From the NCBI GenBank assembly GCA_036141575.1, contig JAYZXF010000011.1, forward strand, positions 1 through 64,000: a DNA stretch of 64,000 nt, in the 5' to 3' direction. The DNA is from Pseudomonadota bacterium. GTDB taxonomy: Bacteria > Pseudomonadota > Alphaproteobacteria > UBA2136 > JAPKEQ01. The notes beneath the pieces were generated by a model that saw nothing but the letters and a program-made list of their open reading frames with translations, did not search any database and had not been told where the DNA came from. A program made the position numbers and the translations under genes. Positions 1 to 33,175 of the stretch are shown here, one piece after another; the first letter of the stretch is position 1; every line of letters starts with the position of its first letter.

Positions 1-1572
1 CGCCGTGTACTTGTTCTTCCTTCTGTTGGTGAAAAACGTATCGAAGAGTTTTCTCCGGGAACAAACGTATCCCTCTCACAGGTTGTTCGCGGTCTTGCTG
101 ACCAGTGTGACGTGAACCTTGTGATTAGTGAAAACAAGCAAAAAATTGCAACAACAACAGTAACAACAAGCTTTAAAAACATCTCTTGTAGTGATGCTTT
201 TGAGGCGGTTCTTGCTCCACATGGTATGAGCCTTGTTGATCGTGGTGACTTTTTCTCAATTGGTGGATTCCCAATTCGTGAGTGGGTTGTTGATTTGCAT
301 GAGCCTGTTCGTGAAGAGAGTCGTGTTGTAAGCTATGCCTCTGAGTTTGGTGGTACTGCTGCTGAGGATGAAGGGGGGGCAACATCCACAATTGGTGGAA
401 GTGCGAATGTTGAAGTCACATATTCTCGTGATCTTTGGCATGAAATGTACCAAAACTTAACAGACCTTATTGATATGTCTTGTGAGCCGAATTCAGCGGT
501 TTCTTCACCTGTTAATAGTGATGGGCTTCTTGCCCCCCCAACTGAAACAGCTTTGATTCCCCTCGAGGATACAAGTTCAAGTGATGATAGCAGTAGTGAA
601 GATAGTGAAGGTACGACACAGGATGGTGGTTCTGTTGAGTGTGGTTATGTACGTGTAAACAGATCTGTTGGTCTTGTGCAAATGCGTGCGCCACAAAGTA
701 CAATTGATGAAGCTGATGAAATTGTTAAACGTATCCAGGATATTGCAAGTCGTCGCCTTATGGTTGAAGCTCGCGTAATTGCAGTTGCTAAGACACGTGA
801 CTTTGAGAGTGGTGCTAGGTTTGGTACGAGTGTTGAATCTTTAGGAGAAGCTGGTCGTGTTGGCCTAGGTTACGAGCCAGGAGTAAATTCATTTACTCAA
901 CAAATGTCTAACATCGATGCAAATGGTAACTTTATTTCAAGTATTACAGGTCGTATTGCTCAACTTATTGATACATCTGGCGGTGTGTTTACACATAGAG
1001 GCAGTAACCTTGATGCTGCTGTAAGGCTTGTAGAAAGCTTTGGTACAACCTACCAGCTTATGCAGCCAACAATTGAGGTGATGGACCGTCAAACAGCAAC
1101 TTTGATTGATGGACGTAATGAACGTTACTTTATTCGCGAAGGTTCTGTTGAGACAGATGATAGTGGTATTACAACACGTAATGTGACATCAAATGAACGT
1201 GTGCAGTTTGTGGGACTCCAATTTAGCGTTACAGCTCAAGTTGCAGAAGAAGGGGATGCTCACACAGTTTCTCTTCAAATTCCAATGACAGATATTGTAC
1301 GCTTTGAGAGCATTACAAACACATTTGATGGTGAAGACTTTACAGACCGTATTCCAATTGCGACAACTCGCCTCATTGACCAGAAGGTACGTGTGCGCGA
1401 CGGTGAAGTCAAAGTTATTGGTGGTTTGACCCGTACCGTCGCTGTTGATAATGAATCTGGAATTCCTTTACTGAAAGATCTTCCTGTTGCAGGAAAGGCA
1501 CTGAGCGAAGAGGATATCTCTTATGAAGAGGTTGAATTCCTTGTTCTTTTACAAGTCAGACGTTTACAATAA
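1..1572 (+). CDS. Type IVb pilus / type II secretion secretin (5' end missing)
   Basis: The reading frame is open from base 1, so the gene starts before the window; 523 residues are visible. The C-terminal ~300 residues read like a secretin domain: a VEARVIAV strand, a long beta-rich stretch, and the characteristic end with IPIATTRLIDQKVRVRDGE and then IPLLKDLPVAGKAL, matching the IPxLxxIPxxG signature of outer-membrane secretins. An acidic Ser/Asp-rich linker lies near bases 570-630, between the N-domains and the secretin ring. The protein would form the outer-membrane channel for a pilus or pseudopilus. The following pilin, ATPase and platform genes support this. Similarity is closest in style to PilN/BfpB of type IVb pili, but that subfamily is an inference. 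The signal peptide or lipobox lies outside the window. Confidence 0.88.
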   Translation, partial: RRVLVLPSVGEKRIEEFSPGTNVSLSQVVRGLADQCDVNLVISENKQKIATTTVTTSFKNISCSDAFEAVLAPHGMSLVDRGDFFSIGGFPIREWVVDLHEPVREESRVVSYASEFGGTAAEDEGGATSTIGGSANVEVTYSRDLWHEMYQNLTDLIDMSCEPNSAVSSPVNSDGLLAPPTETALIPLEDTSSSDDSSSEDSEGTTQDGGSVECGYVRVNRSVGLVQMRAPQSTIDEADEIVKRIQDIASRRLMVEARVIAVAKTRDFESGARFGTSVESLGEAGRVGLGYEPGVNSFTQQMSNIDANGNFISSITGRIAQLIDTSGGVFTHRGSNLDAAVRLVESFGTTYQLMQPTIEVMDRQTATLIDGRNERYFIREGSVETDDSGITTRNVTSNERVQFVGLQFSVTAQVAEEGDAHTVSLQIPMTDIVRFESITNTFDGEDFTDRIPIATTRLIDQKVRVRDGEVKVIGGLTRTVAVDNESGIPLLKDLPVAGKALSEEDISYEEVEFLVLLQVRRLQ

Positions 1573-1637
1573 AGCCATTAATGTGATGCTTCATAAGCTC
1601 ACGGGTAGAAATATTTTTAACTTTAGGGGAATTTTAA

Positions 1638-2246
1638 ATGACTCATTCTAAAAAACAAATGAATGCTGGTTACACGATTGATCAGACGATTCTTATCATC
1701 GCGATTATTGCGATCTTGATTACAATTATTATTGCAACAGTTGGTTGGGACCTTCTACAACGTGCTGGTGGTGCAAAAGTTGCTTCTCATCTGCGCCAAG
1801 TTGAGGGCGCTATTGGTGAGTTTTACTCTCGCCATGAACTCTGGCCACATGAAGCTCAAGCTGCACCAACTAACGCCAACAACGCACGTATCTTAAACGT
1901 TGCTAGTGTAGGTAACGCTGGTGGCTTCCAAGCCGCTGAACACAAAGCTGCCCTACCTGCATACGTTGATAACGCTGCCGGTCTAGAGCACGGTCTGGGT
2001 AACACTGCTGCAGGTTTCCTAACACTTGCTGTTGAATCGGGCCCGATTGCTGGTTCTGTTTGTGACCGTACAAACGTTGCTGAGAGTGTTTACGTAATCA
2101 CAATGGCTGACCTAACACTTGATGAGGTTGTACGTGCTGACGCTTCTCTGGATGGTGGTGATGGTAACGCCGCTGGTCGTCTACGCTGGCCTGCTGCTGC
2201 GACAGCCAACGATGCTGACATTACTTTCTGTGGTAACAGATTCTAA
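1638..2246 (+). CDS. Probable major type IV pilin with atypical cleavage region
   Basis: This is a 202-residue protein with a short basic leader ending in Gly (MTHSKKQMNAG), then YTIDQ and a long Ile-rich hydrophobic helix, the layout of a type IV prepilin. The expected Glu at mature position 5 is Gln, with Asp at position 4. The globular part is Ala/Gly/Asn-rich and has a pair of cysteines (SVCDRT and TFCGN) that could form the C-terminal disulfide typical of type IVb pilins. It lies directly after the secretin and before the assembly ATPase. A GGGG-containing purine stretch about 8 bases upstream of the ATG serves as ribosome binding site. Codon choice looks biased to a restricted set, which fits high expression. 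That it is the major subunit is inferred from its position and size. Confidence 0.75.
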   Translation: MTHSKKQMNAGYTIDQTILIIAIIAILITIIIATVGWDLLQRAGGAKVASHLRQVEGAIGEFYSRHELWPHEAQAAPTNANNARILNVASVGNAGGFQAAEHKAALPAYVDNAAGLEHGLGNTAAGFLTLAVESGPIAGSVCDRTNVAESVYVITMADLTLDEVVRADASLDGGDGNAAGRLRWPAAATANDADITFCGNRF

Positions 2247-2261
2247 TTTAGAGTCTCGTTA

Positions 2262-4385
2262 ATGACAGAAGAAAAACAAGATCCAAAAATCTCCCCAGAG
2301 CAAAGCTCTGGGGAGGCTTTTGTTGATAATAGTCAGTTTGAGAACTGGCTCGAAGAAGAAGTGGTTGCTTCTCCTTCTTCAGCACGAGAAGCTGATGTTC
2401 AGGATTCTGGTGTACCATCAGAACCTCTTACTCTTAAAAAGCCATCAGAAGATGTTTTAGAAAGCCTTATGAATCGCCGTCAGGTGAAAAAACCATCAGG
2501 TTCTGTAAAATCTCTTTTCCCAGCTATTGAAGGTGACTCTGTGTTAGAGCCTAAGGCTGAAGCACCTAAGGAAGAGCCTAAAGTTGAGGAAAAAGCCTCC
2601 CCGAAGCCTCTTTTCTCTCGTAAGAAAAGCAATTTTGATAAAATTGATGAATCACAAATTGCCGATCCTAAAGAAGAAGAGGTTAAGATTGAGTCAGCAA
2701 ATGACTTTTATAAGCGAGCTCTTCAACTTATTTATAAGTCAGAAGACTTGGGTGTTGATGCAACAGCAAAGGCAAACTTATCTGAGGCTTTGCGTGAGAA
2801 CAAAATTCCTCAGCTTGCTGTGAGGGAACTTGTTGCAAATAAGGTTATTAATAACATTCAGCTTGCTCGTGCAATGGCGCGTACACGTAATCGACGTGAA
2901 ATTATGTCTTTCTTGGATGTGCCGCCAGAAGCGCTAGATTTAAAATCAAGCCTTGATAGGCGTATTTTGGATGTGTTGCGAGAACCTCGTATCATCCCTC
3001 TTTGGAAAAAAGAGAATGATGGTTATACAGAGTTTCACTTAGCATATGACCAAGGCGTTAGAAATATTATGATTGAGTCTCAGCTGAGCGACATGATGCC
3101 AAGAACACGTTTCTTCTGGCACTTTGCGATGCGAGATGTTTGTGGTGCTTACTGGCTTTCTGGGTCAAATGATGAAAATATTGATTCAAACATGGAAGCT
3201 GAAGCGCTTCTTGACCGTATTGTTGCGACCGCAATTGATGCACGTTCATCTGATATTCACATTGACCCCAATATTCGTGGAGAACTTAAAGCTGTATTGA
3301 AATACCGTATTGATGGTGCTGTACAGTCTAAAGAGGTGATCACGCAGGATCAGCTTGAGAAGTTGAAAGTTCGTATTGAAAACTTAGCACGTATGCCAAA
3401 GGTTAACCAAAACCACCCCAACAAAGGTGCGTTTTCACGTGCAGGTTTTGACTGGCGTGTTCAAATTCAGCCCCATTCTGGTCGTCAAGGAGCAGTACCT
3501 CGTATCGTTATTCGTCGTTTACAGCCAGACGTGATGCCGATGGAAACACTGGGTTACCCTGAGTACTTTATTGAAAAAATTAAATCTGCAGCCTCTGCTG
3601 CAAACGGTGTCATCTTTTGGACGGGACCTACAGGTTCTGGTAAAACAGAGTCAATTCACTCGGCTGTTGTGAGTGTAAACCCAATGGGGCGCGGCCTGAG
3701 TGTTCATACAATTGAAGATCCTCCAGAGAAACGTGTACCAGGATATGCGGTACAAATGGAAATCTCAGATATGGATGATGCACGTAGCGGAATGGAGCTC
3801 TTGAAGTCTTCTTTGCGTGCTGACCCTGATGTTATTATCTTTGGTGAGGTTCGTGACCAAGAAATGGCTGAGCTTGTATTTGAAGCAGCTAACACGGGTC
3901 ACCTTGTGTTTACAACCCTTCACACCAATACAGCTATTGATGCGATTTCAAGGCTTACAGAACTTGGTATTAATGGGTTCCTTCTGTCATATATTCGCGG
4001 TATTACTGCTCAGCGCCTTGTGCGTCGCCTATGTACACACTGTCGTGTGCCTGTAGAAGAAGCTGATGAATATACACGCTATGTTTTTGAGCGCTATGAA
4101 GTGCCTATGGAGGGTGCGACTCTTTATAAGGCTAACCATGATGGCTGTCCGAGTTGTAACTATTCTGGTTACCATGGCCGTATTGCCATTGCGGAATGGC
4201 TTGTTCCGAATAAAGAGCTGATTGAAGCAACTGTTGATGAGCGTTTTGATGAGCTCGAAGATATTGCCAAAAGAGCTGGATGGTTGCCGATGGGTCACAT
4301 GGGTACTCTACATATGAAGTACGGAATCACCGATGCAGAGGAATTAAGCGACAAGGTACTGGAGTTGTCTACCGAGATTTCCTAG
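2262..4385 (+). CDS. Type II/IV secretion assembly ATPase (GspE/PilB/PilQ family)
   Basis: This 707-residue cytoplasmic ATPase should power pilus assembly. The first ~170 residues are charged and Pro/Lys/Glu-rich and probably disordered. A GspE N-terminal-like domain and the catalytic core follow. Walker A GPTGSGKTES lies near residues 455-464, an Asp box and Walker B (VIIFGEVRD) near residue 527, and a His box (TTLHTN) behind it. Two Cys pairs, CTHC near 590 and CPSC near 630, make the zinc-binding C-module typical of assembly (PilB/GspE) rather than retraction (PilT) ATPases. It follows the pilin by 15 bases. The acidic N-terminal extension is longer than usual. No PilT-like retraction ATPase is seen in the window. 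Confidence 0.93.
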   Translation: MTEEKQDPKISPEQSSGEAFVDNSQFENWLEEEVVASPSSAREADVQDSGVPSEPLTLKKPSEDVLESLMNRRQVKKPSGSVKSLFPAIEGDSVLEPKAEAPKEEPKVEEKASPKPLFSRKKSNFDKIDESQIADPKEEEVKIESANDFYKRALQLIYKSEDLGVDATAKANLSEALRENKIPQLAVRELVANKVINNIQLARAMARTRNRREIMSFLDVPPEALDLKSSLDRRILDVLREPRIIPLWKKENDGYTEFHLAYDQGVRNIMIESQLSDMMPRTRFFWHFAMRDVCGAYWLSGSNDENIDSNMEAEALLDRIVATAIDARSSDIHIDPNIRGELKAVLKYRIDGAVQSKEVITQDQLEKLKVRIENLARMPKVNQNHPNKGAFSRAGFDWRVQIQPHSGRQGAVPRIVIRRLQPDVMPMETLGYPEYFIEKIKSAASAANGVIFWTGPTGSGKTESIHSAVVSVNPMGRGLSVHTIEDPPEKRVPGYAVQMEISDMDDARSGMELLKSSLRADPDVIIFGEVRDQEMAELVFEAANTGHLVFTTLHTNTAIDAISRLTELGINGFLLSYIRGITAQRLVRRLCTHCRVPVEEADEYTRYVFERYEVPMEGATLYKANHDGCPSCNYSGYHGRIAIAEWLVPNKELIEATVDERFDELEDIAKRAGWLPMGHMGTLHMKYGITDAEELSDKVLELSTEIS

Positions 4386-4432
4386 AATGAAGTTAGGTTA
4401 TAACTTTTATTTGAGGGAAGTCTTTACACCTT

Positions 4433-5518
4433 ATGGGTATTGAAATTGGACGCACCAGTTTAGCGCTAGATGATCGGATTGAATTTTTCCGATCTCTTGC
4501 TTCATGGTTACAATCTGGTGGTGGTTCTATGCCTGTGCATGAGGCCCTCAAAAACACGTGTGACTCATTTTCTCGTGATGAATATCGCACACTAAAGTCT
4601 AAGTTTGATAAAATATATAATGAATTTCATTCTGGTCAAACAACGATTACAGCAGGTTTGCGTTCATCAAACTTAGGGTTTATGCACCAAGAACTTGCTA
4701 TTTTAGATGCTGCTGAAAAAGCAAACCAGCTTCGTCTTGCTGTTCCTGCCCTTGTAGAAGCCCTTGAAATGCGTGCAAAGGCAACAAAAAGCCTAAAAGG
4801 TAAACTGACAATGCCACTTGTGGGTGGTTTTATGCTTATTCTTATGTCGATTGGTGTATTGGTATTTATGATGCCGACGGTTATGGAGCCTGTACTTTCA
4901 CGTGATGCTTCAAAGGTTGATTCATTCCCGAGTATTATCCGTTACTATTGGTACCTTTCTGTTTGGATTAGGTCTAACCCTTGGATTGTGACAGGGTTCT
5001 TCTCTGCACCTATTCTTTTCTTCCTTTTGAGAAAGGTTTCATTTGTAAAGCCTCATTATGAAAAAATGATGATGGGTTTTGGCCCTGCTCGTAAAATTAT
5101 TATCTCTTTTAACTCTGTATTGGTTGTGTACTTTATGCCTGCACTTGTACGTGCTGGCATGCCATTACCAGAGGTATTAAAAGCGATTGCAGAACTTTTA
5201 GATAACTCAAAAATTAAAGGTATTTTTAGCCGAGCTGCCATTGATCACGAACAAGGATACCGCCTTGGTGAAGTTTTAGAGGGTGTTCCTTTTAAAGGGG
5301 CCTTTAGAAGTGCTGTAGAGGCAGGAGAGAAAACAGGTATGATTGCAGAAAGGGTGGAAGATCTAAAGACACCATTTCTAAATGATTATGAACGTATTGT
5401 TAAGAAAAGTGTATCAGCACTTATGATGATTGTTATGGGGCTTCTTATGCCAATGTTCCTTATGAGTATGTACACAACTCTTGTAACCCCGATGATTGCA
5501 CTGATGGAGTACTCATAA
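4433..5518 (+). CDS. Inner-membrane platform protein (GspF/PilC/PilR family)
   Basis: This 361-residue polytopic protein has the GspF layout: a cytoplasmic helical domain (residues 1-120), a hydrophobic segment around 125-150, a second near 185-205, a repeated cytoplasmic domain with a GMPLPEVLKAI-type motif and a VEAGEKTGMI motif, and a last membrane segment at the C-terminus. The G-E-x-T-G type motif is diagnostic for the family. It anchors the assembly ATPase and pilin extraction at the inner membrane. The gene sits 47 bases after the ATPase and one base before the next gene, so it is almost certainly in the same operon. The start is set by a GAGGGAAG stretch upstream of the ATG. Confidence 0.9.
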   Translation: MGIEIGRTSLALDDRIEFFRSLASWLQSGGGSMPVHEALKNTCDSFSRDEYRTLKSKFDKIYNEFHSGQTTITAGLRSSNLGFMHQELAILDAAEKANQLRLAVPALVEALEMRAKATKSLKGKLTMPLVGGFMLILMSIGVLVFMMPTVMEPVLSRDASKVDSFPSIIRYYWYLSVWIRSNPWIVTGFFSAPILFFLLRKVSFVKPHYEKMMMGFGPARKIIISFNSVLVVYFMPALVRAGMPLPEVLKAIAELLDNSKIKGIFSRAAIDHEQGYRLGEVLEGVPFKGAFRSAVEAGEKTGMIAERVEDLKTPFLNDYERIVKKSVSALMMIVMGLLMPMFLMSMYTTLVTPMIALMEYS

Positions 5519-5519
5519 A

Positions 5520-6662
5520 ATGTTTTTAATTTCATCCGCCGGAGTTCACGTTCCATTACCTGATAAAGGTGATGCAGTCGGCATGTTTGTGCCCAATAAT
5601 GCTGTGACACGCCGCTATAATGATATTCAAAACCCTTCAAAAGGTGCTGTGAAATCTCGCGTAGGGCTAGATGGTGCTGAGCAACCGCTATGGCGTATGT
5701 TTGAGGATAGAAGTGTAGAGTTTTATGGATCTGTTAACGAGAGTGTAACAGAGCGCCGTTCTTCTGTTTCTGTTTACTTACCAAAAGATTTCCTTCCAGA
5801 AGGTTATAGTGTTTTTTACTACGTGTTTAACGATCGTTGGGTCGTATATGGTGAGCGAATTCTATCTGATGAAGGTGTTGCCAGTTGGGTTTATACGAAG
5901 TTTGATGCAGATGGTGAGGACCTCGCAGACTTTTTAATTGGGACAATTTCTGACCGCCTTGTAAAAGGGGTGAGGGAGCGTATTTGTGTTGCCGTTGAAA
6001 ACTGCCCTCAATCTGAAGGCAACTTAAAGGATAACTTAGAACCTTTTGATATTGAGGTTATGCCATTTTCAAGCCTCAAAGTTGCTAAAGTTAAGCCTGT
6101 TTACCAGCATAGAGACTTTGGTCTTGTTATGCTTTTAGGTTTTTTGTGCGGTTTTATTATGATGGCAGCAGCAACAGGTATTTTTGCAAAAAGTTACTTT
6201 GAGCTGACCTCTGTTGAAGAAGAAAATGCCATGATTAGAGGCCAGATTCGTGAAATGCAGAGGCAGATGGTTCTGGGACAGATTGCAGATCCTGATTCAG
6301 TACTAAAGCTAATTAAACAGGAAAAGACAGTTAAACCTTCTTCACTGATTCATGAAACAGGTACGATTGCAGCAATGTTTGGCAATTTGGAAGAAATGAA
6401 AGTTTCTTATCAGGATGTAAATGGTAGAGTTAGTCAGGGTGGCGGTAAAGCTGTTCCTGGAATTCTTGGTTATAGAAATAATAAAGAAATTTTAACAATT
6501 GCTACTGTTGGTACAGAGACGCCCCAAATGCTTGTAGACCAAGAAAGGGTGGCGGCTTCTGTTTTGAAAAATAGAGAGCATGTGAGAGAGATTACAAGAA
6601 CCAGCTCGGATATGGCGACGCTAGATCTGTCTATTAAAATGCAACTGGGGGCACAAAAATGA
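5520..6662 (+). CDS. Bitopic pilus assembly protein (PilM/PilN- or GspL-like position)
   Basis: The protein has 380 residues: a cytoplasmic N-terminal domain of ~200, one strong membrane helix (about 202-225, LVMLLGFLCGFIMMAAATGI), a short coiled coil and a periplasmic domain. This is the topology of GspL or of fused PilM/PilN, which couple the ATPase to the periplasmic alignment complex. I do not recognise a clear actin-like nucleotide motif, so the family assignment rests on topology and gene order (after the platform protein, before PilO- and PilP-like genes). It starts one base after the previous stop and overlaps the next gene by the four bases ATGA, so translation is probably coupled. 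Confidence 0.6.
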   Translation: MFLISSAGVHVPLPDKGDAVGMFVPNNAVTRRYNDIQNPSKGAVKSRVGLDGAEQPLWRMFEDRSVEFYGSVNESVTERRSSVSVYLPKDFLPEGYSVFYYVFNDRWVVYGERILSDEGVASWVYTKFDADGEDLADFLIGTISDRLVKGVRERICVAVENCPQSEGNLKDNLEPFDIEVMPFSSLKVAKVKPVYQHRDFGLVMLLGFLCGFIMMAAATGIFAKSYFELTSVEEENAMIRGQIREMQRQMVLGQIADPDSVLKLIKQEKTVKPSSLIHETGTIAAMFGNLEEMKVSYQDVNGRVSQGGGKAVPGILGYRNNKEILTIATVGTETPQMLVDQERVAASVLKNREHVREITRTSSDMATLDLSIKMQLGAQK

Positions 6663-7195
6663 CGCGTTCAGGTTTTAGACGGTTATGGATTTTAGTGCTT
6701 GTGGTGCTTATGGGGGCTTCATACCTGATTTATAATAAAACATCAGATAAGCAGCTTCAAATTAACTCGCAGTTACAAACTAAAAAGCTTCTTATTTTGC
6801 AGCGCGAATCAATTCAATCAATGGCTGAAAAGCTAAAGTATATTGATGAGCTAACACTTCATGAGCAAGATGCGACGCGTTTGGATATTTTGAAGTTCCT
6901 ATCCCTTGAAGAAGATCGATCTTTTGAGTTTGTTCCTGGAACAAAAATATATTTGCCAGTAGGGAGTGTTCAAATTTATGAGCGTGGGTTTGATCTAAAA
7001 GGAACGATGCCATACAAGCAAATGCAAAAGAAGCTAGATGAACTTTATGAAAATGAGCGCATTGTTCTGAAAGATATTGAAATTGAGCATGTTGATGAAC
7101 CAGGCTCACTTGTTCGGGTTAAGGTTGCAGCCAAAATGTTTGCTCTAGATAAAGGGCAAGCCTATAAGAGAAATATTATTAGGAGAAAGAGATAA
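6659..7195 (+). CDS. PilO/GspM-like alignment protein
   Basis: This is a 178-residue protein with one N-terminal membrane helix (about 9-26), a coiled-coil stretch (residues 35-65) and a small alpha/beta periplasmic domain near 90-165. Length and layout match PilO or GspM, which form periplasmic heterodimers linking the inner-membrane complex to the secretin. Sequence identity to known members is not obvious by eye, so the call rests on topology and its place between the bitopic protein and the PilP-like gene. It overlaps its upstream neighbour through ATGA and its downstream neighbour through TAATG, a tightly coupled operon. Confidence 0.55.
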   Translation: MTRSGFRRLWILVLVVLMGASYLIYNKTSDKQLQINSQLQTKKLLILQRESIQSMAEKLKYIDELTLHEQDATRLDILKFLSLEEDRSFEFVPGTKIYLPVGSVQIYERGFDLKGTMPYKQMQKKLDELYENERIVLKDIEIEHVDEPGSLVRVKVAAKMFALDKGQAYKRNIIRRKR

Positions 7196-7815
7196 TGCTT
7201 CGTAAAGTATGTTTGGTCGCAGTATTTACCTGTTATGCTGCCTCTTCTTTCTCTCAATCTGCTGAGCCGTTTTGGCGTGTACTTGCGGATGAAACAGACG
7301 TTTCGATGCCTGCTTACAATGGAGAAAGATCCCCGTTTCCTTACGTAGAGCCTCCAAAGGTAGAAATTGTTGAAGTTTTTAAAGAGCCAGAAATTATTTA
7401 TGATCCGAGCTTGATTGAACGTGAGGCGCGCAATAAAAAAGCCGCAGAAATTTTAGCTGAAATTAGAGATATCCTTCTTTCAGAGACAGCCTTCAATCCT
7501 GATTTGAGTAATGTTGTTGTCAGTGGTGTTATTAAAGGTGAAAGAGGTAACTCTGCGCTGATTGATAACCAGTGGGTCGGGTCTGGAGAAGAGCTTAAAG
7601 TTCCCGTTCAGGCTGTAGACCGTCTTGTTGGCCTTGTCGGCTACTTGAGATCTTTGAGCCCTGATCTATCTGAGAGCGTTCAGCAGAAAATTGATATTAA
7701 GCTTGCTGAGATTGGAAGGTTTAAACTTCGTTTAGATCGTATTGAAGAGAGAAGTGTTGTTTTTAAAGATAACAATAACAAAACATATGTCATTTTATTT
7801 GAGCATATGAGTTAG
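7195..7815 (+). CDS. PilP/GspC-like periplasmic protein
   Basis: This 206-residue protein has an N-terminal signal-like segment (MLRKVCLVAVFTCYAASSFS). A Pro/Glu-rich linker and helix follow, then a C-terminal beta domain beginning around VVVSGVIKGERGNSALIDN with a GSGEELKVPV turn and a final RSVVFKDNNNKTYVI strand pair. This is the homology-region fold of PilP/GspC, which binds the secretin N-domains. It follows the PilO-like gene with a TAATG overlap, the usual order (N-O-P). The signal sequence could be an uncleaved anchor. Its C-terminal pattern resembles the end of the 690-residue protein at 30194-32266. Confidence 0.6.
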   Translation: MLRKVCLVAVFTCYAASSFSQSAEPFWRVLADETDVSMPAYNGERSPFPYVEPPKVEIVEVFKEPEIIYDPSLIEREARNKKAAEILAEIRDILLSETAFNPDLSNVVVSGVIKGERGNSALIDNQWVGSGEELKVPVQAVDRLVGLVGYLRSLSPDLSESVQQKIDIKLAEIGRFKLRLDRIEERSVVFKDNNNKTYVILFEHMS

Positions 7816-7855: not shown

Positions 7856-8842
7856 GTGCAAGTTATCTATATCATGGGCGTATTTATGTTTGTATTCTCT
7901 ATTGTTATGGGGCTTACAACCACTTTGACGCGTTCCGCTATGCAGAATAAACTTGATAGTATTGCTCAAGTTGAGAGCATGTTTTTAGATATTGAGCGCG
8001 GCACAAATAATGGTATTTTAGCCAATCAAGCTGATCTTAGATATCTTCACAACCATTTTCGAAATGGTGTTTCGAATGAATTTTCACAAAATGCGACAAC
8101 GCGGGCAGCTAGAGATGGCTTTAATGCGGCCCTTCTCGACTATGTAAACTGGAGTGAAGATCAGTTACGTACTGACCCTTGGGGGACGCCTATGCGCGTT
8201 TATTACTCAACAAGCTATAGATTTTTAGATGCAGGTGTGCAGGCGCCTATTACAACATTTGCATATATTTCTGCAGGTCCTAACAAAGGGTTTGAGGCTT
8301 CATCAACGCTGGCAACTGTGAATACCAATAATATTACAGCAATGGAGGTCTCTGCTGGTTCAGATGATATTCTGTATGTGTTTAGCACGTATGATGCAAT
8401 GGCGAGAACGTGGAATATTTTAACAAAGGCAGTGGATGGTGTGATTGGTCTTATTCAAACGGACTATTCAGATCAATATGCGGAATTTTTACCACAAATT
8501 GAAACCTATAACGCGGGGCGTTTTGCTGCAGATCCAACATTTGGCTTTGATAACGCAAGTTTAAATGAGTGGTTGACGGCTCCATCACTTACAGGTCTAG
8601 CAGGGTACCCAACATTACCAGACGGAACGGCTGGCGTTGCAGCTGTTGGTGGGTCGGTATACTTTAATGGAGCACCGCTTTTTAATATTACGCCACCTGC
8701 TAATGTTGTGACGATTAACAGAACAAATGCATTTACTGCTCAAGTGGGAATTAATCTGTCTGCAGCAGGTGCGCCAGCACTTATTGGGTGGAATATTAAC
8801 TATATGCGTACGATTGATGGACGCTCAATTGTTTCAAACTAA
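7856..8842 (+). CDS. Large pilin-like (pseudopilin) protein, GTG start
   Basis: This 328-residue protein begins with GTG, supported by an AGGAGG seven bases upstream. The hydrophobic helix starts almost at the first residue (QVIYIMGVFMFVFSIVMG), so there is no ordinary basic leader; if there is a processing site it would be the Gly at residue 8, and no Glu follows at position 5. A GspG-like DPWGTPMRVYYS motif lies near residues 104-115, as in pilin-like proteins that carry the same element. It precedes two further pilin-like genes and is probably a minor subunit. The pilin assignment is an inference from the helix, the DPWG motif and the neighbours. Confidence 0.6.
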   Translation: MQVIYIMGVFMFVFSIVMGLTTTLTRSAMQNKLDSIAQVESMFLDIERGTNNGILANQADLRYLHNHFRNGVSNEFSQNATTRAARDGFNAALLDYVNWSEDQLRTDPWGTPMRVYYSTSYRFLDAGVQAPITTFAYISAGPNKGFEASSTLATVNTNNITAMEVSAGSDDILYVFSTYDAMARTWNILTKAVDGVIGLIQTDYSDQYAEFLPQIETYNAGRFAADPTFGFDNASLNEWLTAPSLTGLAGYPTLPDGTAGVAAVGGSVYFNGAPLFNITPPANVVTINRTNAFTAQVGINLSAAGAPALIGWNINYMRTIDGRSIVSN

Positions 8843-8853
8843 GGGGTAGGGTT

Positions 8854-14319: not shown

Positions 14320-14320
14320 C

Positions 14321-25606: not shown

Positions 25607-25698
25607 CTTTGGGGTATTCTTACGGTGTAAATTTATATTTTAGCTTAAGAGAGGGCGCTTTTTGTGTACCGTTTTTCTTTGTGTGAGGAGAAGTTTAA

Positions 25699-27168
25699 AT
25701 GACTGATGAATATGAAAAGCAACAGTCTTCAGAAAATGCTGAGGGATTACAGTTAGCTGTTCAGCGATTTAACGAGCTCCCACCTGCTGGTAAGTATGCC
25801 CTGATCGGGGTTGGTCTTTTCTTTGTTATGGTTATTTTATTTAGAGGTGGTGGCGGTGGCTCTCAGCCTGCGCCTCGCGTTGTACAATCAGATGTCTCTC
25901 GTGCAAGTGTTCAAAGTCTTGAAAAAGCTAATTCATCTCAAGAGGATTTGTTTACAACTGTTGAGGCGGAGCGTGATTCGTTGTATCGAGGGTTTGTGTC
26001 TCAGCAACAGGTTGCTTTATCTAAGCTCAGAGATGATGTGAAAACCGAAATGGATGCACGTGATTCCCAGTTTTTAGAAATTCAAAACCGTGTGATTGAG
26101 CAAACATCCAAGCTTGATGAGATGATCCGCACATTTGAGGTACAGATTCGCTCTATGCAAGAAGATAATGTTGAGTTTAGAGAGCAGATGAGTCGTCTTG
26201 CTGAAGAAGCTCAACGTCAGGGTGTTCGCCAAGGTATGGGTATGGGTGGTACGCCTGAACGTAGAAGGCAGAGAGTTTCTCAAACCCCTTTAGGTAGTGG
26301 CGGCGTTGCTGGCGGTATCAGTGGCCAACCGCTTATTCCTGGAATTATTGGTGGTGCAACGGGTGGTAATGTGCGCCTTGATAGAAATGGAAACGTTATT
26401 GGTCCTGTCCCTCAAGAAATTATTATTGATGAGCCTAACCCATTTTTACCTCCTCTTGGCTTTATTAAAGGCACGCTTCTTAACGGTGTAGACGCCCTTG
26501 CAGGGGCGGGGGTTGCAGCTCCAGCGCTTGTACGCATGTCTGGTGTTTATAAAACAGCTATGAACTCTACGGTCAATCTTGATGGGTGTTTAATGCTTGT
26601 TGAATTTGAAGGTGAAATTTCAACTGAACGTGCATTAGGTAAACCAAGCCAAATGACATGTGTGTACCCGGACCGTGGTGCTGTAACGTACTCTGTAACA
26701 GGTTATGTTGTTGATGCTAAGGATGGTATTGTTGGGGTTCCAGGTGTGTTTTATGAGGGGGATCCAAGTAGGCTTGCTGCTGCCTTTGCTGCAGAATTCC
26801 TTGCGGGTGTCGCTTCTCTTGTAGAAGAAAGCCAGGTTACAAGAACATCTGACCTTGAAGGTAATGAGCAAACAACAGTTACAGGAAGCCAAGTACAGGC
26901 ACAGCTGGCAAGTGGTGTGAACGACTCTATTCAAACGTTAAGAGATTATTTGGTTGAACGTTTGGACCGTGTACAGTCATTTATTCGCTTAGACTCTACA
27001 CGTGATATTCACATTGTTATGTTGAGTGGTATTGAACTGCGTGAAGCAGGAAACCCTTGGACACTTCTGTTTGATGGTATTGCTTTAGATACAGCAACAG
27101 AGGCTGCAGAAGCTGCAGCAAAGCAGGCCCAAGCTCAGCAAGCTTCACAACAGAATGAAAACTTTTAA
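25699..27168 (+). CDS. TraB/VirB10-like T4SS core protein
   Basis: This is a 489-residue protein: a cytoplasmic N-terminus, one membrane helix (about 34-51), a Gly-rich linker and coiled coil (residues ~70-175), then the VirB10-type beta-barrel domain. That domain includes GVYKTAMNSTVNLDGCLMLV, STERALGKPSQMTCV with the matched Cys, a VTGYVVDAKDGIVGVPGVFY strand and AAAFAAEFLAGVASLVEE. These are the order and motifs of F-type TraB (LxGC...ERA...C...GYVxGxDG...G). It spans both membranes as the central scaffold. A GTGTGAGGAG sequence precedes the ATG. It heads a unit with the TraV- and TraC-like genes. Confidence 0.9.
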   Translation: MTDEYEKQQSSENAEGLQLAVQRFNELPPAGKYALIGVGLFFVMVILFRGGGGGSQPAPRVVQSDVSRASVQSLEKANSSQEDLFTTVEAERDSLYRGFVSQQQVALSKLRDDVKTEMDARDSQFLEIQNRVIEQTSKLDEMIRTFEVQIRSMQEDNVEFREQMSRLAEEAQRQGVRQGMGMGGTPERRRQRVSQTPLGSGGVAGGISGQPLIPGIIGGATGGNVRLDRNGNVIGPVPQEIIIDEPNPFLPPLGFIKGTLLNGVDALAGAGVAAPALVRMSGVYKTAMNSTVNLDGCLMLVEFEGEISTERALGKPSQMTCVYPDRGAVTYSVTGYVVDAKDGIVGVPGVFYEGDPSRLAAAFAAEFLAGVASLVEESQVTRTSDLEGNEQTTVTGSQVQAQLASGVNDSIQTLRDYLVERLDRVQSFIRLDSTRDIHIVMLSGIELREAGNPWTLLFDGIALDTATEAAEAAAKQAQAQQASQQNENF

Positions 27169-27195
27169 AACAATAAAAACAAGGTATAAAATAAT

Positions 27196-27609
27196 ATGAA
27201 ACAAATCAGAATTTTCGGTGCGATCCTTCTTGTGTCGATCTCTCTTTCTGGATGTAAGTACTATGGTAGTGCTGTTCCACCAGAGTATCCAGTTTCAATG
27301 GATGATGCCTTGGATGTAGCAACGGATAGAAACACTGTTTCAGGCGGTATTCAGCGCCCTATCGTAAGAAAACTTACACGTCCAGCTATTGACCAGCCAA
27401 CATATGTACCTGAAAAAGAGCTTGCGGTTGTCGCACCTCCAAAAACGCTACTTGTATGGTCATACCCTCATGTAACAGATGATAATACACGTGTGTTTGG
27501 TAACTGGTCTACAATCTTTATTAATGATCGATATGAGTGGATTCCACCAAACAATGAAGTTGCAGCAGAAGAAATGACATTTGGAGGGGGCTATGGGGCT
27601 TCTCGATAA
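27196..27609 (+). CDS. TraV/VirB7-like lipoprotein
   Basis: This 137-residue protein has lipobox SISLSGC (Cys20). The C-terminal segment PPKTLLVWSYPHVTDDNTRV resembles the conserved TraV pattern in which a PPxxLxxW(I/Y)xP segment is followed by an acidic turn. TraV is the outer-membrane lipoprotein partner of TraK and TraB. The position between traB-like and traC-like genes matches F. Its stop overlaps the start of the traC-like gene by 17 bases. Confidence 0.72.
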   Translation: MKQIRIFGAILLVSISLSGCKYYGSAVPPEYPVSMDDALDVATDRNTVSGGIQRPIVRKLTRPAIDQPTYVPEKELAVVAPPKTLLVWSYPHVTDDNTRVFGNWSTIFINDRYEWIPPNNEVAAEEMTFGGGYGASR

Positions 27610-30190
27610 GGATGTGCATGCACCAATACGTCCAAACCGTATTGGTGAGCAACTGCCATATTTTGAATATGAAGACAAAGAGGATTCTGACTACCATGGA
27701 TACTATCTCTTAAAAGATGGTTCTCTGGGTATTGCTTGGAAGACTGCTATTCCTCCATCGTACTCATATGACCAAGGGTATTTACAGACGAACAATGAAT
27801 TTAGAACATTCATTGAAAGTGTACCTATGGGCTATGAAGTCCAGATTACGATGACTTCACACAATAACCTGACTGATAAGATGAAAAAGTACCTGTCTCT
27901 TGAGTCAGGTGCTGAAAAAGGGAAAATTCTTCGCCATTCCCGAGCTGAAAAATTGTTAGATGCTGGTTTTAATGGGTATCAAGTGAGTGATGCAAGTTTC
28001 ACAATGCTTCGTGATACTTATATGGTGATTACACTGCGCTCCCCAACATTTATTGAAAATATGGGACTACTTGCAACAGTTATGGAATCACTGTTCCAAT
28101 TGTTTGCAACGGTGTTTAGTGCTGTAGGTTTAGACCTTTCAAAAATGATGGATGGTTTCCTAACCAAAATGGTTCGTGAAAACATGGCTGAATTTTCTGA
28201 GGCTGTGATGTCTGCGGAATCAACGCTAAATGAAATGTTTGGTATTGGGGCGCCATCTCGTATGGACCCTGCGGACATGAAAAGCCATTACTGGACAATG
28301 TATGCGCCATCTTACAAAGAGCCAGGGCAGCAAGTTTCAGTTGACCCTCATGTTGATTTGAACAACCAAATGTTCCCGCTCCCGATTGAACAGGACTTTG
28401 ATATGATCAAGGTTGGGAATGATTATCATGGCCTTGTGATGATGGCAATTATGCCTGACAGTGTTGGCCCTGATTACCTAGGTGTGATTCGAAGAACGCT
28501 GATTACGCAGTACACATTCTTTGTCAATATTGCGCAAGCAAACCAAATTTTTGAACGAGCAGCGTTATCTGTATCTTCAGCACTGCGTAGTCGTGTTGCG
28601 ACGATGTTTTCTAAAGAGGAAGCTGTTGCTTTTGCTGAAGAAGCCTCTCAAGTTAAGTTCCGTATGTTTGATGGTCGTAAAATTCTTTACATTATGTGCG
28701 GCGTGATTGTTCATGGTAAGTCTCGTAAAGAGGTTGAGAACAAGATGCTTCGCATGAACTCTACATTTAAGAAACTTTCTGTGGTTCCTGATATGGAACG
28801 TACAATGTCTCTACAAGGGATTAGCTATAGTTTCCCGCTTTCATGGCGTAATAACTACACGAAGCCATTTGCAAGAACACGTCGTGTCCTTTCAGATGAC
28901 CTCACGGACCTTCTACCTTTCCATGGGCACTGGGGTGGTCACGATTATCCTCAGTCAGTTTATGTGAACCGTGACGGTGAAATTACCTTCTTTGATCATA
29001 CGTCTCCAGATTTTGTGAACTGGCACTACGCGATTACTGGTACTTCGGGTTCTGGTAAATCGTTTGCCGTGGTTGACTTAACGCTGCAGCTTTTTGCAGC
29101 AGGTGTTGAGAAACAGTTCCTGATGACAATTAAGGATGACTACGACCGCTTTGCTCAAACAATGGGTAAACTGGTTATTATTGACCTTGATAACGTTTCA
29201 TCTTGCATTAACCCGTTTGCTGGCCCTATTACAAAGCACCGTTTACAACAATGGTCTACAGCTCTTGAGCTGATGATTCAAAAGGGTAGTGATGTTGAAG
29301 CTAGCATTATGGAAAGCCGCCTAACGGAGCAGATTGTACAGTACGCATATGAGCTTGTACCTGAAGGTGATGTCCTGCGTCCAACATGGATCCGTGAGGC
29401 TTACTTCAAGTTCCCTTATGTAAGTGAAGAGCAGCGTGCGATTGGCTTTAGCCATGCAGAGCTTGTGGGTTCATACTGTGAAGATGGTATTTACGGAAAA
29501 CTGTTTGATGGATTCCCTTCAATTACTGAAGATGACAAGCTTGTTGTCTTTAACCTGCAAAACGTACTGAGTGAAAAGATTTCAGACGTTATTGTAAACG
29601 CGATCTTTACCATGCTTGATAACGTGATGTACATGGGTGACCGTGCGGCTAAGAAGCACCTTCTGGTCGATGAGATGATTACGATGATTACCTCTAAGGG
29701 TGGTGCACAGGTTGCTAACCAGTTGAAACGTGCGTTCCGTACATATCGTTCTTTGAACTGTATGTGTGGTATTGCTTCTCAAAACGAGGAAGATTTAACA
29801 ACTGAGGTTGGTCAGGCTATTATTGGTAACATTACCAAGCGTATGGTCCTTAAACCTCGTCGTGAAATGATTCCTCTTCTCATGGAAACTCTAGGGCTTC
29901 GTAGTGAACGTCACCAAGCGAACATTGAGTCGCTTGAAACAAAACCTGGTTTCTATAGTGAATTTTACCTCATGTCACCATCTGGTGAAGTTGTGTGTCG
30001 CTTAATTACAGATAAGCTGACGTATGCGATTGCAACAACAACACCTGAAGATGTGGCAGAGATTAACCGACTTAGACAAGACAATGGTGGAGATTGGTGG
30101 AAAGCAACATTGCAATTTAGCCAAATCTACCCGCATGGTGTTCGCGCCGCGATTAAAGCCGCACGCCAGCAAGAAGGAGACGCAGCGTAA
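27593..30190 (+). CDS. TraC/VirB4-like T4SS ATPase
   Basis: The protein has 865 residues from the ATG at 27593, which has GGAGGGGG just upstream. The N-terminal half matches the F-type TraC region (residues ~20-330, beginning LPYFEYEDKEDSDYHGYYLL). The C-terminal half is a VirB4-type ATPase: Walker A GTSGSGKSFA near residue 482 and Walker B HLLVDEMITM near residue 690, followed by a CGIASQNEED sensor segment. VirB4 ATPases energise pilus assembly and substrate transfer at the inner membrane. It overlaps the TraV-like gene and is followed four bases later by the next gene. Full-length, with intact motifs. Confidence 0.92.
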   Translation: MGLLDKDVHAPIRPNRIGEQLPYFEYEDKEDSDYHGYYLLKDGSLGIAWKTAIPPSYSYDQGYLQTNNEFRTFIESVPMGYEVQITMTSHNNLTDKMKKYLSLESGAEKGKILRHSRAEKLLDAGFNGYQVSDASFTMLRDTYMVITLRSPTFIENMGLLATVMESLFQLFATVFSAVGLDLSKMMDGFLTKMVRENMAEFSEAVMSAESTLNEMFGIGAPSRMDPADMKSHYWTMYAPSYKEPGQQVSVDPHVDLNNQMFPLPIEQDFDMIKVGNDYHGLVMMAIMPDSVGPDYLGVIRRTLITQYTFFVNIAQANQIFERAALSVSSALRSRVATMFSKEEAVAFAEEASQVKFRMFDGRKILYIMCGVIVHGKSRKEVENKMLRMNSTFKKLSVVPDMERTMSLQGISYSFPLSWRNNYTKPFARTRRVLSDDLTDLLPFHGHWGGHDYPQSVYVNRDGEITFFDHTSPDFVNWHYAITGTSGSGKSFAVVDLTLQLFAAGVEKQFLMTIKDDYDRFAQTMGKLVIIDLDNVSSCINPFAGPITKHRLQQWSTALELMIQKGSDVEASIMESRLTEQIVQYAYELVPEGDVLRPTWIREAYFKFPYVSEEQRAIGFSHAELVGSYCEDGIYGKLFDGFPSITEDDKLVVFNLQNVLSEKISDVIVNAIFTMLDNVMYMGDRAAKKHLLVDEMITMITSKGGAQVANQLKRAFRTYRSLNCMCGIASQNEEDLTTEVGQAIIGNITKRMVLKPRREMIPLLMETLGLRSERHQANIESLETKPGFYSEFYLMSPSGEVVCRLITDKLTYAIATTTPEDVAEINRLRQDNGGDWWKATLQFSQIYPHGVRAAIKAARQQEGDAA

Positions 30191-30193
30191 GCT

Positions 30194-32266
30194 ATGGTAC
30201 TAAAACGTAAACTCCCTACAAAAAATGACGCTGAAGCAAATGCAAATAAAGATGCTGCAGCCTCAACGCCTGCTGAAAAGCCAGAGGTGAAAGAGGAAGC
30301 TGAACAGCGACCTTCTCGTTATGCGGATAAAGCAAAAGAAGATGCGGCGGAAGTCGCTGCTTCTGCTGAGCCTGTAGCTCCTGCTGAAAAACCTGCGCCT
30401 CAAGCGGAAGCTCCTGCCCCTGAAGCGCCAAAAGAAAAGCCTAAAGCCACGCCTCTAAAAAGAAGCATGCCGAAAAAATCTGAATCTGCTGATAAGCCTA
30501 AGAAGCAAGAAAAGAAAGCAGAGGCCCCGAAAAAGCCTGACGTTCCTAAAAAAGTAGAAGAAAAGCCAAAGGCAGAGAAAAAGGCTGCTGAAAAGAAACC
30601 TGAGCAGAAAAAAGCTGAGCCTAAGCAAGAGAAGCCAGAAACTCCTCAAGCTGCCGCTCCGGCACCAACAGCCCCTGTTAAGGCACCACCACCTTCAGAT
30701 TTTAAAGTTCCAGATATAGCCCCTCTCGGAGTACCTCCGGAATCTGAGAGTGCTCCTGCGCCTATGGTATCGCCAAGCGATGAAATGGCCTCGCCTTCTG
30801 ACAATAAAGAAAGTGCAATGCCTTGGATGGAGCAAAAGGCAACGCCAATGGAAGCGCCAAAAGAGCCTGCTATCGAAGAAAAACCACCAATTCCAGATAA
30901 TGTGGAAACACCCACAACACCTGCTGGGGGAAGTTGGCTTACAGATGATGTTACACCTCCATCACTTGGTGGCGGCGAAGTACCTGAAAAGCCAGAAAGC
31001 GCAGCAAACCCATTTAGTGTTGAACCCATTACACCCCCTTCAATGACACCTCCGCCAATTTTTGGCGAGGGTGAGGTAGAAGAAAAACCTGCAGAGCCTA
31101 AAAAAGAAGATAAGTCATTTTCTTTTGGTGGGGCAGGGCAGCCTCCTTGGAAGCTAAATGACGCGGGAACATCTAAAGGTGATGACAATAACCCGCCAGT
31201 TCTTCCTGACGCGTTCCAAGTTGCAAAAGATGTTGGTAAAAAAGGTCTTATTGGTAAAGTTGTAACCGTTGTTATTGCTCTTGTTGTGATCGTATTTGCA
31301 GTGAAGATGTATAACCAGCGTGATAAGGCAACAGAAATGCTGGCCCGTTGGACAGGGACACTCAAGCAAGTAAGTGAAGAAGTACCTGAGACAGCTGAAG
31401 ATAAGACAGCTCTTGTACAGCCTGAAAACATTGTACAACCAGGTCAGGATGAAGAGATTGTTCAAAGCGATGATGTTGAGTCTGAAATTTTTGACGAGCT
31501 ACCAGACCTAGAAGAGTTTAGTGTTGGCGATACACAAATTGAAGTGCTTGATGTGCCACTTGATGAAGCTGGTCAGCCTATTGTTGCTGGTGATGACGAT
31601 GAGATGCCAGAGGACCTAAGCCTCTTTGCAAACATTCAGCGTGCGATTAGTGATGCACAAACAGAAAAGAGCGTTGAAGAAGCTAAAGAAAAAGGCTTTG
31701 ATGTTGAGGCTGGTAAAGCTGAACCAACAGAAGAAGAAATTTACTTACGTAACAGAGAGATGACTTTAGAGCTTCAGCAACAGCTTGCTGAATATCGTAA
31801 AGCACTTGCTGGTGAGTCCGATCCTTTGAAGAAGCCAAAGCCTTCTGAGTTTTTTGAGAATGCGTCAGAGGGTGGCACAGAACAGGCGGTGCTTCAGCCG
31901 CCACAGCAAGAGACTGCACGCTTTGGTGCGAACCCTTACGACCTTCCTGTTGTGCCTGAGCCATCAGGTGAGGAAGAAGTGCCAACTGTACGCACACTTG
32001 CCGATTTTGAAGCAACCATGTACGAAAAACAGGAAACACGTATCAGAATGCCACGTGGTATTCGTCCAAAATTGGAAAATTCTGATATGGTAGCCCTTGA
32101 AATTTTATCTTTCGTACCCAATAGAGGTATTATAGCCTTCCATCAGGGACGCGAGGGTGTTCTCCTGATTGGTGAGTCGATTGAGGGCTGGGAATTGGTT
32201 GCAGTATTTGAACATTATGCAGAGTTCAGCAACGGTACCCGTCGCCAAACAGTAACAATGAGATAG
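30194..32266 (+). CDS. Bitopic protein with Lys/Pro/Ala-rich cytoplasmic arm and GspC/PilP-like C-terminus
   Basis: This is a 690-residue protein. Residues 1-340 are rich in Lys, Pro, Ala and Glu and probably disordered. A single membrane helix (about 353-373, VVTVVIALVVIVFAVKMY) is followed by an acidic periplasmic region, a short helix and a C-terminal beta domain. That domain begins VALEILSFVPNRGIIAF and continues with HQGREGVLLIGESIEGWELV and VFEHYAEFSNG, similar in pattern to GspC/PilP homology regions. It follows the TraC-like gene by four bases. F-type systems have no counterpart that I recognise, so it may connect the T4SS core with the pilus secretin. That is inference. Confidence 0.6.
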   Translation: MVLKRKLPTKNDAEANANKDAAASTPAEKPEVKEEAEQRPSRYADKAKEDAAEVAASAEPVAPAEKPAPQAEAPAPEAPKEKPKATPLKRSMPKKSESADKPKKQEKKAEAPKKPDVPKKVEEKPKAEKKAAEKKPEQKKAEPKQEKPETPQAAAPAPTAPVKAPPPSDFKVPDIAPLGVPPESESAPAPMVSPSDEMASPSDNKESAMPWMEQKATPMEAPKEPAIEEKPPIPDNVETPTTPAGGSWLTDDVTPPSLGGGEVPEKPESAANPFSVEPITPPSMTPPPIFGEGEVEEKPAEPKKEDKSFSFGGAGQPPWKLNDAGTSKGDDNNPPVLPDAFQVAKDVGKKGLIGKVVTVVIALVVIVFAVKMYNQRDKATEMLARWTGTLKQVSEEVPETAEDKTALVQPENIVQPGQDEEIVQSDDVESEIFDELPDLEEFSVGDTQIEVLDVPLDEAGQPIVAGDDDEMPEDLSLFANIQRAISDAQTEKSVEEAKEKGFDVEAGKAEPTEEEIYLRNREMTLELQQQLAEYRKALAGESDPLKKPKPSEFFENASEGGTEQAVLQPPQQETARFGANPYDLPVVPEPSGEEEVPTVRTLADFEATMYEKQETRIRMPRGIRPKLENSDMVALEILSFVPNRGIIAFHQGREGVLLIGESIEGWELVAVFEHYAEFSNGTRRQTVTMR

Positions 32267-32284
32267 CAAGGGTACGTTCCGTTT

Positions 32285-33175
32285 ATGCGCATTGATCTAG
32301 ATAAAGTCCGTCAACTCGGTGAAGAATACGGTTGGGCAATCCCACAAATTGAGCAAGCACTCGCAACAGCTGTGCGTCTATGTTACGCCGACCAAGATAT
32401 GTTGGTTGAAGTTGATGTTGACCTAGACGAAGGTGAGATTGCTTGTCGTCGTTTTACTGGTGATGGCCCAAGCGCCACTTGGACAGATATCCGTAACCCG
32501 CTTATGCCAACAATTAAGTCCTTCATGAAAGTGATGGAGATGGTGCAGTGGGGCGATGGTTCTCCTGGCCGCGTACTTGACGGTACAGTGACAGGTTACC
32601 GTGATGGTGGTGTAATCTACCGTGTTGGCGCTAACATGGTCTTTGTGCCAGAAAACCTTCTTGCTGTTATGGACTACCATACACGTCCTCCTCTTGGCAC
32701 TGAACAAGTTCTTGTTCTTATTAATAGCCGTGAAGGTGGTGAGCGTGGTATGCGTATGGCGACACGCCGTGGTAAAGAGTTTGTTGCTGCTGTTATGGAA
32801 AGTTTCCACCCTGAAAGCCTCAGTGGTATTTGGATGGGTGCATCAAACTCATGGGCAGTTCTGCGTATGAAGCAAGAGCACATGAACACATGGCTTGAGT
32901 CTGGTGGTGTAAACATTAAATACATGCAACAGATTCTAGGCATACGTCGTATTACAGTGATTCCTGAAGGTCGCGGTGAAAATGCTCTCGAGCGTCGTAA
33001 CAACGAAATTGAAACATTTATTTCAAACGCATGGCGTGATTGCCGTGTGGCAAAGCTGGACGATCAGGCAGTGGTGGTTCATACACCGCTGGATAGTACA
33101 GACCCACGTAAGATCCGTACATTCCTGTCAATGCTGAAGAAATTTGCTCCAGATCGCGAGCAGGTTATTCTTTAA
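32285..33175 (+). CDS. NusA-like transcription factor paralogue
   Basis: This 296-residue protein aligns by eye with the first ~300 residues of NusA. The N-terminal RNA-polymerase-binding domain has IEQALATAVRLCY and VEVDVDLDEGEIACRRF. An S1-like domain (GRVLDGTVTGYRDGGVIYRV, VFVPENLL) is followed by the MRMATRRGKEFVAAVM segment, equivalent to the conserved VTRSKPEF region of NusA. A KH-like part (VNIKYMQQILGIRRITVIPE) follows. It is shorter than full NusA (~500) and lacks the C-terminal acidic repeats. It closes the T4SS operon and is followed by a strong terminator. The KH glycine loop GxxG is not evident, so RNA binding may be altered. Confidence 0.78.
   Translation: MRIDLDKVRQLGEEYGWAIPQIEQALATAVRLCYADQDMLVEVDVDLDEGEIACRRFTGDGPSATWTDIRNPLMPTIKSFMKVMEMVQWGDGSPGRVLDGTVTGYRDGGVIYRVGANMVFVPENLLAVMDYHTRPPLGTEQVLVLINSREGGERGMRMATRRGKEFVAAVMESFHPESLSGIWMGASNSWAVLRMKQEHMNTWLESGGVNIKYMQQILGIRRITVIPEGRGENALERRNNEIETFISNAWRDCRVAKLDDQAVVVHTPLDSTDPRKIRTFLSMLKKFAPDREQVIL

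Follow-up and report, generated by a model that had tools for sequence, protein, structure and literature searches.

Pairings of type IV pili (T4P) with type IV secretion systems (T4SS) on mobile elements were listed in a 2025 T4SS review, namely the IncI plasmids with their Dot/Icm-like system and PAPI-1 of Pseudomonas aeruginosa (PMC12857230). In PAPI-1 the T4P is needed for DNA transfer (PMC5297154, PMC12857230). The F-type T4SS of the gonococcal genetic island releases single-stranded DNA, requires ParB and has lytic transglycosylases (PMC4207684). No publication on the pairing of an F-type core with a T4P, or on the lineage studied here, was found in a literature search outside which subscription journals mostly lay. 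Such a pairing is described here from a 64,000-nucleotide stretch of alphaproteobacterial DNA, termed the window (Pseudomonadota bacterium, assembly GCA_036141575.1, contig JAYZXF010000011.1), in which T4P genes run directly into a divergent F-type T4SS core, the two forming a single chromosomal block.

The window spans the initial 64 kb of a 276 kb contig (C11) within a 1.85 Mb assembly of 19 contigs (G000), which was searched by targeted queries only. Profile evidence was drawn from Pfam, NCBIfam, hmmsearch and selected hhalign comparisons, and fold evidence from AlphaFold models compared with the PDB using Foldseek. Positions 1-33175 contain 27 genes, with the plus strand used throughout (Table 1), and divide into a pilus half (1-15865) and a tra half (16044-33175), the last two conserved genes of the block starting at 30194 and 32285. 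An initial annotation, made from the sequence of the window, had described pilus genes followed by an F-type core on one strand, which the profile and fold matches bear out. Its statement that the tra genes lie in F order holds for traA-L-E-E-K and for traB-V-C, but traK and traB are separated by the genes for a lytic transglycosylase, a UvrD-type helicase, a sigma factor-ParB (sigma-ParB) fusion and a TraH-like protein. In six further genomes of the order, syntenic orthologues or homologues exist for every gene of the block with two exceptions, the lytic transglycosylase gene, not found in three of the six (G003, G004 and G008), and the terminal NusA-like gene, not found in G004. Barring these exceptions, this conservation indicates that the gene set is not due to chance.

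The order was sampled with 18 genomes, and genomes within the group are small (0.9-1.9 Mb). TraC was present in all 18, with identity mostly 62-68% across families. A strong orthologue of the pilus ATPase (61-100% identity) was present in 16, with only weaker GspE/PilB-type paralogues in G005 (78% complete) and G016 (68%). The junction between the pilus and tra genes was intact in all 11 genomes with a contig spanning it, both within the order (G000, G002, G003, G004, G007, G008, G013 and G015) and in other orders of the class (G290, G075 and G196). These are metagenome-assembled genomes (MAGs) of uncultured bacteria that bear names such as UBA2136, MED694, UBA6503, OFTM141 and RI_95, several of them labelled as pond isolates. 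The joined order therefore recurs in other alphaproteobacterial genomes, and the halves were not seen apart in close relatives.

To compare the histories of the two halves, trees were built from a concatenated alignment of each (pilus, 2,971 columns; T4SS, 3,533 columns) and set against MutS for nine taxa. All were concordant at every node with support of at least 93%, and conflicts were confined to nodes at 48-63%. Pairwise distances of the halves correlated with r = 0.976, and with 0.78 after MutS was regressed out, a partial correlation that is indicative only because it rests on nine taxa and one housekeeping gene. These results agree with the suggestion of the initial annotation that the halves co-evolved. 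The mutS gene itself lies 5.6-13.2 kb downstream in seven genomes (G000, G001, G003, G006, G008, G196 and G290). A mobile-element boundary near 15866-16044, raised earlier as a possible argument against a single system, was not seen: the junction (15866-16043) contains no long repeats, the window contains no tRNA, no integrase or relaxase match was obtained in or beside the block, and GC content at third codon positions is similar in the pilus (0.316) and tra (0.343) halves, with 0.411 in neighbouring chromosomal genes. It is well shown that the block is chromosomal, vertically inherited and a single co-inherited unit, and this is far more certain than the nature of the substrate moved.

The full block is approximately 45 kb and extends beyond the window upstream. 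In relatives, the secretin gene is preceded by genes for a TraF/TrbB-like thioredoxin protein (C30), small membrane proteins, a soluble VirD4-type coupling ATPase (C25; TraG-D_C 1.4e-9, R64 TrbC 1.5e-12), a lipoprotein (C28), a divergently oriented protein with N-terminal transmembrane segments (C17) and a TcpQ-like protein. G000 carries these genes too, the coupling ATPase and the TraF-like C30 among them, in the terminal part of contig C13. That contig breaks off within the secretin gene, and its final nine bases, CGCCGTGTA, are the first nine of the window. Contig C13 continues the window upstream; the nine-base overlap alone is weak, and both the gene order and the split secretin match relatives. 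The 5' end of the secretin gene is missing from the window because the window starts at a contig end. The coupling ATPase was found in 16 of the 18 order genomes, and the two without it are MAGs of 68% and 89% completeness. The identity of C17 as a homologue of DotM/TrbA was considered and rejected: neither hmmsearch nor hhalign matched it to R64 TrbA, and the PDB gave no match. Several relatives have a TraG-like gene (C47) and a conserved gene (gene C13) within the block. In G000 these two genes are found at the end of contig C14 (6446-12093 in the stretch examined), away from the main block, an arrangement shared by G001, and gene C13 is present in two copies in G006.

The tra half is confirmed as a divergent F-type T4SS core, with weak assignments for TraV, TraG and TraH. 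The predicted TraB and TraC have matches among the F references and none among the R64 core references, and with both F-like, no core of the IncI mating-pair formation class (MPF_I; DotG/DotH/DotI/DotO type) was recognised. TraK gave no useful sequence match; the best PDB matches of its model were 7spb, the F core complex (8.7e-13), and 7oko (4.0e-11), followed by VirB9-type proteins, consistent with an outer-membrane core component. The putative TraA and TraL of the window itself fall under the Pfam cut-off, with TraA supported by orthologues (2.4e-6). The traE-like gene is duplicated at 16784-18048 and is single copy in the other families examined. A TraF identity for C30 is indicated by PF13728, which is above the cut-off in the G002 orthologue. 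The TraG and TraH candidates rank F TraG and TraH first among 50 references, with weak scores. The lipoprotein in the TraV position had no family match, and the proline-rich protein downstream of TraC had no database match. The NusA-like protein likewise matched nothing by sequence and was recognised by its fold; alignments of it and of TraE, when searched against PDB sequences, returned nothing useful. TraU was above the Pfam cut-off in none of the 18 order genomes, and TraW, F-type TrbC and TraN had no Pfam match in the scanned proteins of the cluster, to which that search was confined.

The pilus half encodes a T4P with TcpQ-like accessory proteins. The label type IVb, used in the initial annotation, is only partly supported, because the ATPase is not R64 PilQ-like and the secretin is MshL-like, despite the presence of TcpQ-like proteins. 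The pilus ATPase of the window's clade does not group with R64 PilQ in the tree, the best model for the secretin is MSHA MshL, with R64 PilN reaching only 0.07, and the Pfam TcpQ matches (3e-4, and up to 9e-4 in five relatives) are all under the cut-off. A catalytic A24 domain was not found in the 11187-11594 protein, and the prepilins are presumably cleaved by a peptidase encoded elsewhere in the genome.

Each described system shares part of this arrangement. F plasmids and their mating-pair formation class (MPF_F) have the traA-L-E-K...B-V-C order, homologous core proteins, a TraF-like protein and the TraK fold in common with the window. The window differs in the joined T4P, in the extra genes between K and B, in being chromosomal and fixed, and in the lack of a TraU above the cut-off in the order and of TraW, TrbC, TraN or relaxase matches in the cluster. 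The IncI plasmid R64, which pairs MPF_I with a thin type IVb pilus, likewise carries a T4P locus, a T4SS and a coupling ATPase on one replicon; unlike the window, it has a Dot/Icm-like core, a PilQ-type pilus ATPase and a MOBP relaxase, and is a mobile plasmid. PAPI-1 resembles the window in having a T4P alongside a DNA transfer system (PMC5297154), but only its VirB4 and VirD4 homologues are clear (PMC12857230), whereas the F-type core of the window is almost complete. The gonococcal island is similar as a chromosomal F-type system with ParB and lytic transglycosylases. However, it possesses TraU, TraW, TrbC, TraN and a relaxase, has no joined T4P described, and is an island that is not fixed in a clade.

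A related system was found by a plasmid-wide search on pOS401 (AP026971.1), a 305 kb plasmid of Comamonadaceae OS-4 typed as non-mobilizable. As in the window, T4P genes are followed by a lytic transglycosylase gene (SLT), traA-L-E-K-B-V-C, TraF, TraH-like and TraG-like genes, a coupling ATPase and a UvrD helicase, the last two adjoining one another. Homology extends to the coupling ATPase (1.2e-60), the UvrD helicase (1.9e-47), the membrane protein C17 (8e-21) and the TcpQ protein (7.9e-14), with weak matches for a TraG_N-like protein (0.012) and NusA_N (0.024); the sigma-ParB fusion was not found in pOS401. In the TraC tree, pOS401 joins the clade of the window, separate from F, R64 and Variovorax (support 95). 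Unlike the window, the cluster is plasmid-borne and its pilus is R64-type, with an ATPase that groups with R64 PilQ (87% support). The coupling-ATPase tree leaves the history of pilus pairing undecided (support 45), and either an ancestral pairing of core and pilus was followed by pilus exchange, or T4P were recruited on more than one occasion. The pOS401 TraC is carried by no phage record. The coupling-ATPase relatives on Halomonas and Variovorax plasmids proved to be parts of conventional F-type systems that include TraU, TrbC and TraN, and the stretches examined have no annotated pilus genes. For the C17 homologue of pOS401, inspection by eye had suggested an HD-domain or MOBH-like protein, but Pfam gave no TraI_2 or HD match. 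The pOS401 cluster, at 4919-41592 of AP026971.1 60000-109999, may be an unrecognised transfer system despite its typing, and the plasmid is a possible laboratory entry point to the system.

Factors that may act in transcription are encoded within the block itself. All 19 PDB fold matches of the terminal NusA-like protein with E ≤ 0.001 were NusA or NusA-containing complexes, although the pLDDT of the model (71.7) makes the arrangement of its domains uncertain. Terminator-like hairpins were present 3' of traA in seven of the ten genomes examined. Together, the sigma-ParB fusion, the NusA-like protein and the hairpin after traA suggest that a very long transcript may be initiated and read through with the help of dedicated factors. 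The fusion would probably start transcription of the block or mark DNA, and the NusA-like protein would probably help RNA polymerase to pass internal terminators such as that after traA. Outside the order, the fusion used as a search marker gave full-length copies in four of approximately 380 genomes of the class, and among 399 phylum-wide genomes it was found in the window's own genome only; this search underestimates the spread of the wider family, given that the marker was not found in pOS401.

The reading that we favour, with a probability of roughly 0.55, is that the locus is a fixed chromosomal machine for T4P-assisted DNA translocation that is inherited vertically. The T4P would reach and hold a surface, a neighbouring cell or DNA, and TraA, L, E, K, V, B and C with the TraF-, TraG- and TraH-like proteins would build the channel through the envelope. 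Single-stranded DNA may be fed into this channel by the soluble VirD4-type coupling ATPase together with a dedicated UvrD-type helicase, and the lytic transglycosylase may open the cell wall. The helicase, kept in the genomes examined, suggests DNA as the substrate. In this way the T4P would replace the F-specific mating-pair parts of a DNA-translocating T4SS, and the role would be DNA donation or exchange as opposed to self-transfer of a mobile element. A T4P tied to an F-type core and inherited chromosomally across orders points to a host function over selfish transfer. It also makes it testable whether a T4P can stand in for F-specific mating-pair proteins, in a system whose very long gene block apparently has transcription factors of its own.

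Several observations weigh against T4P-assisted DNA translocation. No relaxase family matched among the cluster proteins scanned, and neither a substrate nor a secretion signal nor an origin of transfer was recognised. The composite envelope machine proposed in the initial annotation gains from the conserved co-occurrence and junction, which bear only indirectly on physical coupling and cooperation between pilus and channel. Helicases of superfamily 1A can serve other cellular roles. The block can also be broken, as in G367, a more distant genome among the four with the marker, where the sigma-ParB gene is followed by unrelated non-tra genes and the gene run C13-TraB-V-C-C11-NusA-like is found on a separate contig. 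A broader formulation, which we hold only tentatively, is that the locus represents a distinct T4SS class, sister to the F-type, with a T4P as working partner, fixed in the chromosomes of whole alphaproteobacterial orders as a dedicated organelle for DNA donation or exchange with its own sigma-ParB protein, NusA-like antiterminator and helicase.

The strongest alternative, itself unlikely, is that one co-inherited machine delivers protein effectors to protists or bacteria and uses the T4P for attachment. The small genomes suit a host-associated life, fixation without a recognised relaxase resembles effector systems, and VirD4-type ATPases sort proteins too, as is generally known for Dot/Icm. 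The UvrD-type helicase, fixed in the block and beside the coupling ATPase in pOS401, argues otherwise, and no effector candidates were seen, although none were sought. We consider it less probable again that two independent surface systems are held together by shared regulation or an operon only, with no joint mechanism. Each half is nearly complete as a machine of its own kind, and the R64-type pilus of pOS401 shows that the core does not need the window's particular pilus. However, both halves are retained, with no loss observed in a well-sampled contig, they co-vary after removal of MutS in the nine taxa, and the coupling ATPase and TraF-like genes lie beyond the far side of the pilus genes, so that the halves interleave. 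Although F-type genes are usually mobile and a related core is carried by pOS401, an integrative conjugative element, active or remnant, that is merely carried along by these chromosomes is very improbable given the same mutS neighbourhood in seven genomes across families and orders, the tree concordant with MutS, the lack of tRNA, integrase or relaxase matches in or beside the block and the absence of the sigma-ParB marker from all 72,556 plasmids searched.

Table 1. Features of the block within the window, with the evidence for each assignment (TM, transmembrane segment; T2SS, type II secretion system).
Feature	Position	Strand	Evidence
Secretin	1..1572	+	Pfam Secretin 4.4e-20, NCBIfam MshL 1.9e-34; 5' end missing, rest on contig C13
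Pilin-like, N-terminal hydrophobic helix	1638..2246	+	Orthologues in several order genomes; related to other pilin-like genes
T4P/T2SS assembly ATPase (GspE/PilB type)	2262..4385	+	T2SSE 1.6e-69; strong orthologue in 16/18 order genomes
Inner-membrane platform (GspF/PilR type)	4433..5518	+	T2SSF 4.9e-21; R64 PilR 5e-4
PilO/GspL-like assembly protein, one TM	5520..6662	+	Syntenic orthologues; function by position and topology only
PilN/O-like, N-terminal TM	6659..7195	+	Syntenic orthologues; identity by position only
PilP/GspC-like periplasmic protein	7195..7815	+	Syntenic orthologues; resemblance judged by eye only
Minor pilin-like	7856..8842	+	Profile match to adjoining prepilins
Prepilin	8854..10017	+	N_methyl 5.5e-6
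Prepilin, paralogue of 8854 gene	10039..11184	+	N_methyl 1.4e-3
Prepilin-peptidase N-terminal (Cys-rich) domain only	11187..11594	+	A24_N_bact 5.2e-26; also short in relatives that have it
Lipoprotein, long coiled coil, TcpQ-family-related C-terminus	11668..14319	+	Shares profile family with TcpQ-like proteins
Second TcpQ-family-related lipoprotein	14312..15865	+	Final gene of pilus half
TraA/VirB2-like pilin	16044..16400	+	TrbC/VirB2 3.7e-4; up to 2.4e-6 in relatives
Intrinsic-terminator-like hairpin 3' of traA	16411..16440	+	13-pair stem, then T-run
TraL (VirB3-like)	16460..16729	+	Pfam TraL 9e-5, NCBIfam 6e-4
TraE (VirB8-like)	16784..17422	+	PF05309 2.1e-4 in relatives; F TraE top of 50 references, weak
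TraE-like duplicate	17419..18048	+	Profile match to TraE cluster
TraK (VirB9-like outer-membrane core)	18048..18767	+	AlphaFold pLDDT 74.9; Foldseek
Lytic transglycosylase	18813..19550	+	SLT 5.5e-7
UvrD/Rep-type helicase	19560..21311	+	UvrD-helicase 6.2e-20, UvrD_C 8e-18; kept in order and pOS401
Sigma70-like/ParB-KorB fusion, 707 residues	21412..23535	+	NCBIfam sigma70-ECF 1.7e-7, KorB 2e-4; GERR motif in relatives
Exported Cys-containing protein, TraH-like candidate	23622..25538	+	F TraH top of 50 references, weak; pOS401 homologue 2.4e-11
TraB (VirB10-like)	25699..27168	+	TrbI 8.9e-10; cluster profile vs F TraB 4.7e-20
TraV-position lipoprotein	27196..27609	+	Position, lipobox, pOS401 TraV-position gene 4.9e-6
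TraC (VirB4-like ATPase)	27581..30190	+	TIGR02746 1.1e-52
Proline-rich bitopic protein, conserved C-terminal domain (PilP/GspC-like by eye)	30194..32266	+	Conserved order-wide
NusA-like (N-terminal domain, S1, KH), 296 residues	32285..33175	+	AlphaFold pLDDT 71.7; Foldseek best 2.6e-12

The genes 3' of 33175 are mostly outside the conserved block and include those for an AI-2E-type permease, MurJ and MutS. A PD-(D/E)XK nuclease gene at 34222-35013 adjoins the block and is not conserved together with it in relatives. On the same contig, a second and different VirD4/TraD-type ATPase is encoded at G000:C11:169545-170522 and possibly belongs to a separate mobile element. Further along the window, a CHASE2-adenylate cyclase, a Slam-like TPR outer-membrane protein and a GAF protein are grouped on the minus strand at 57099-61260.

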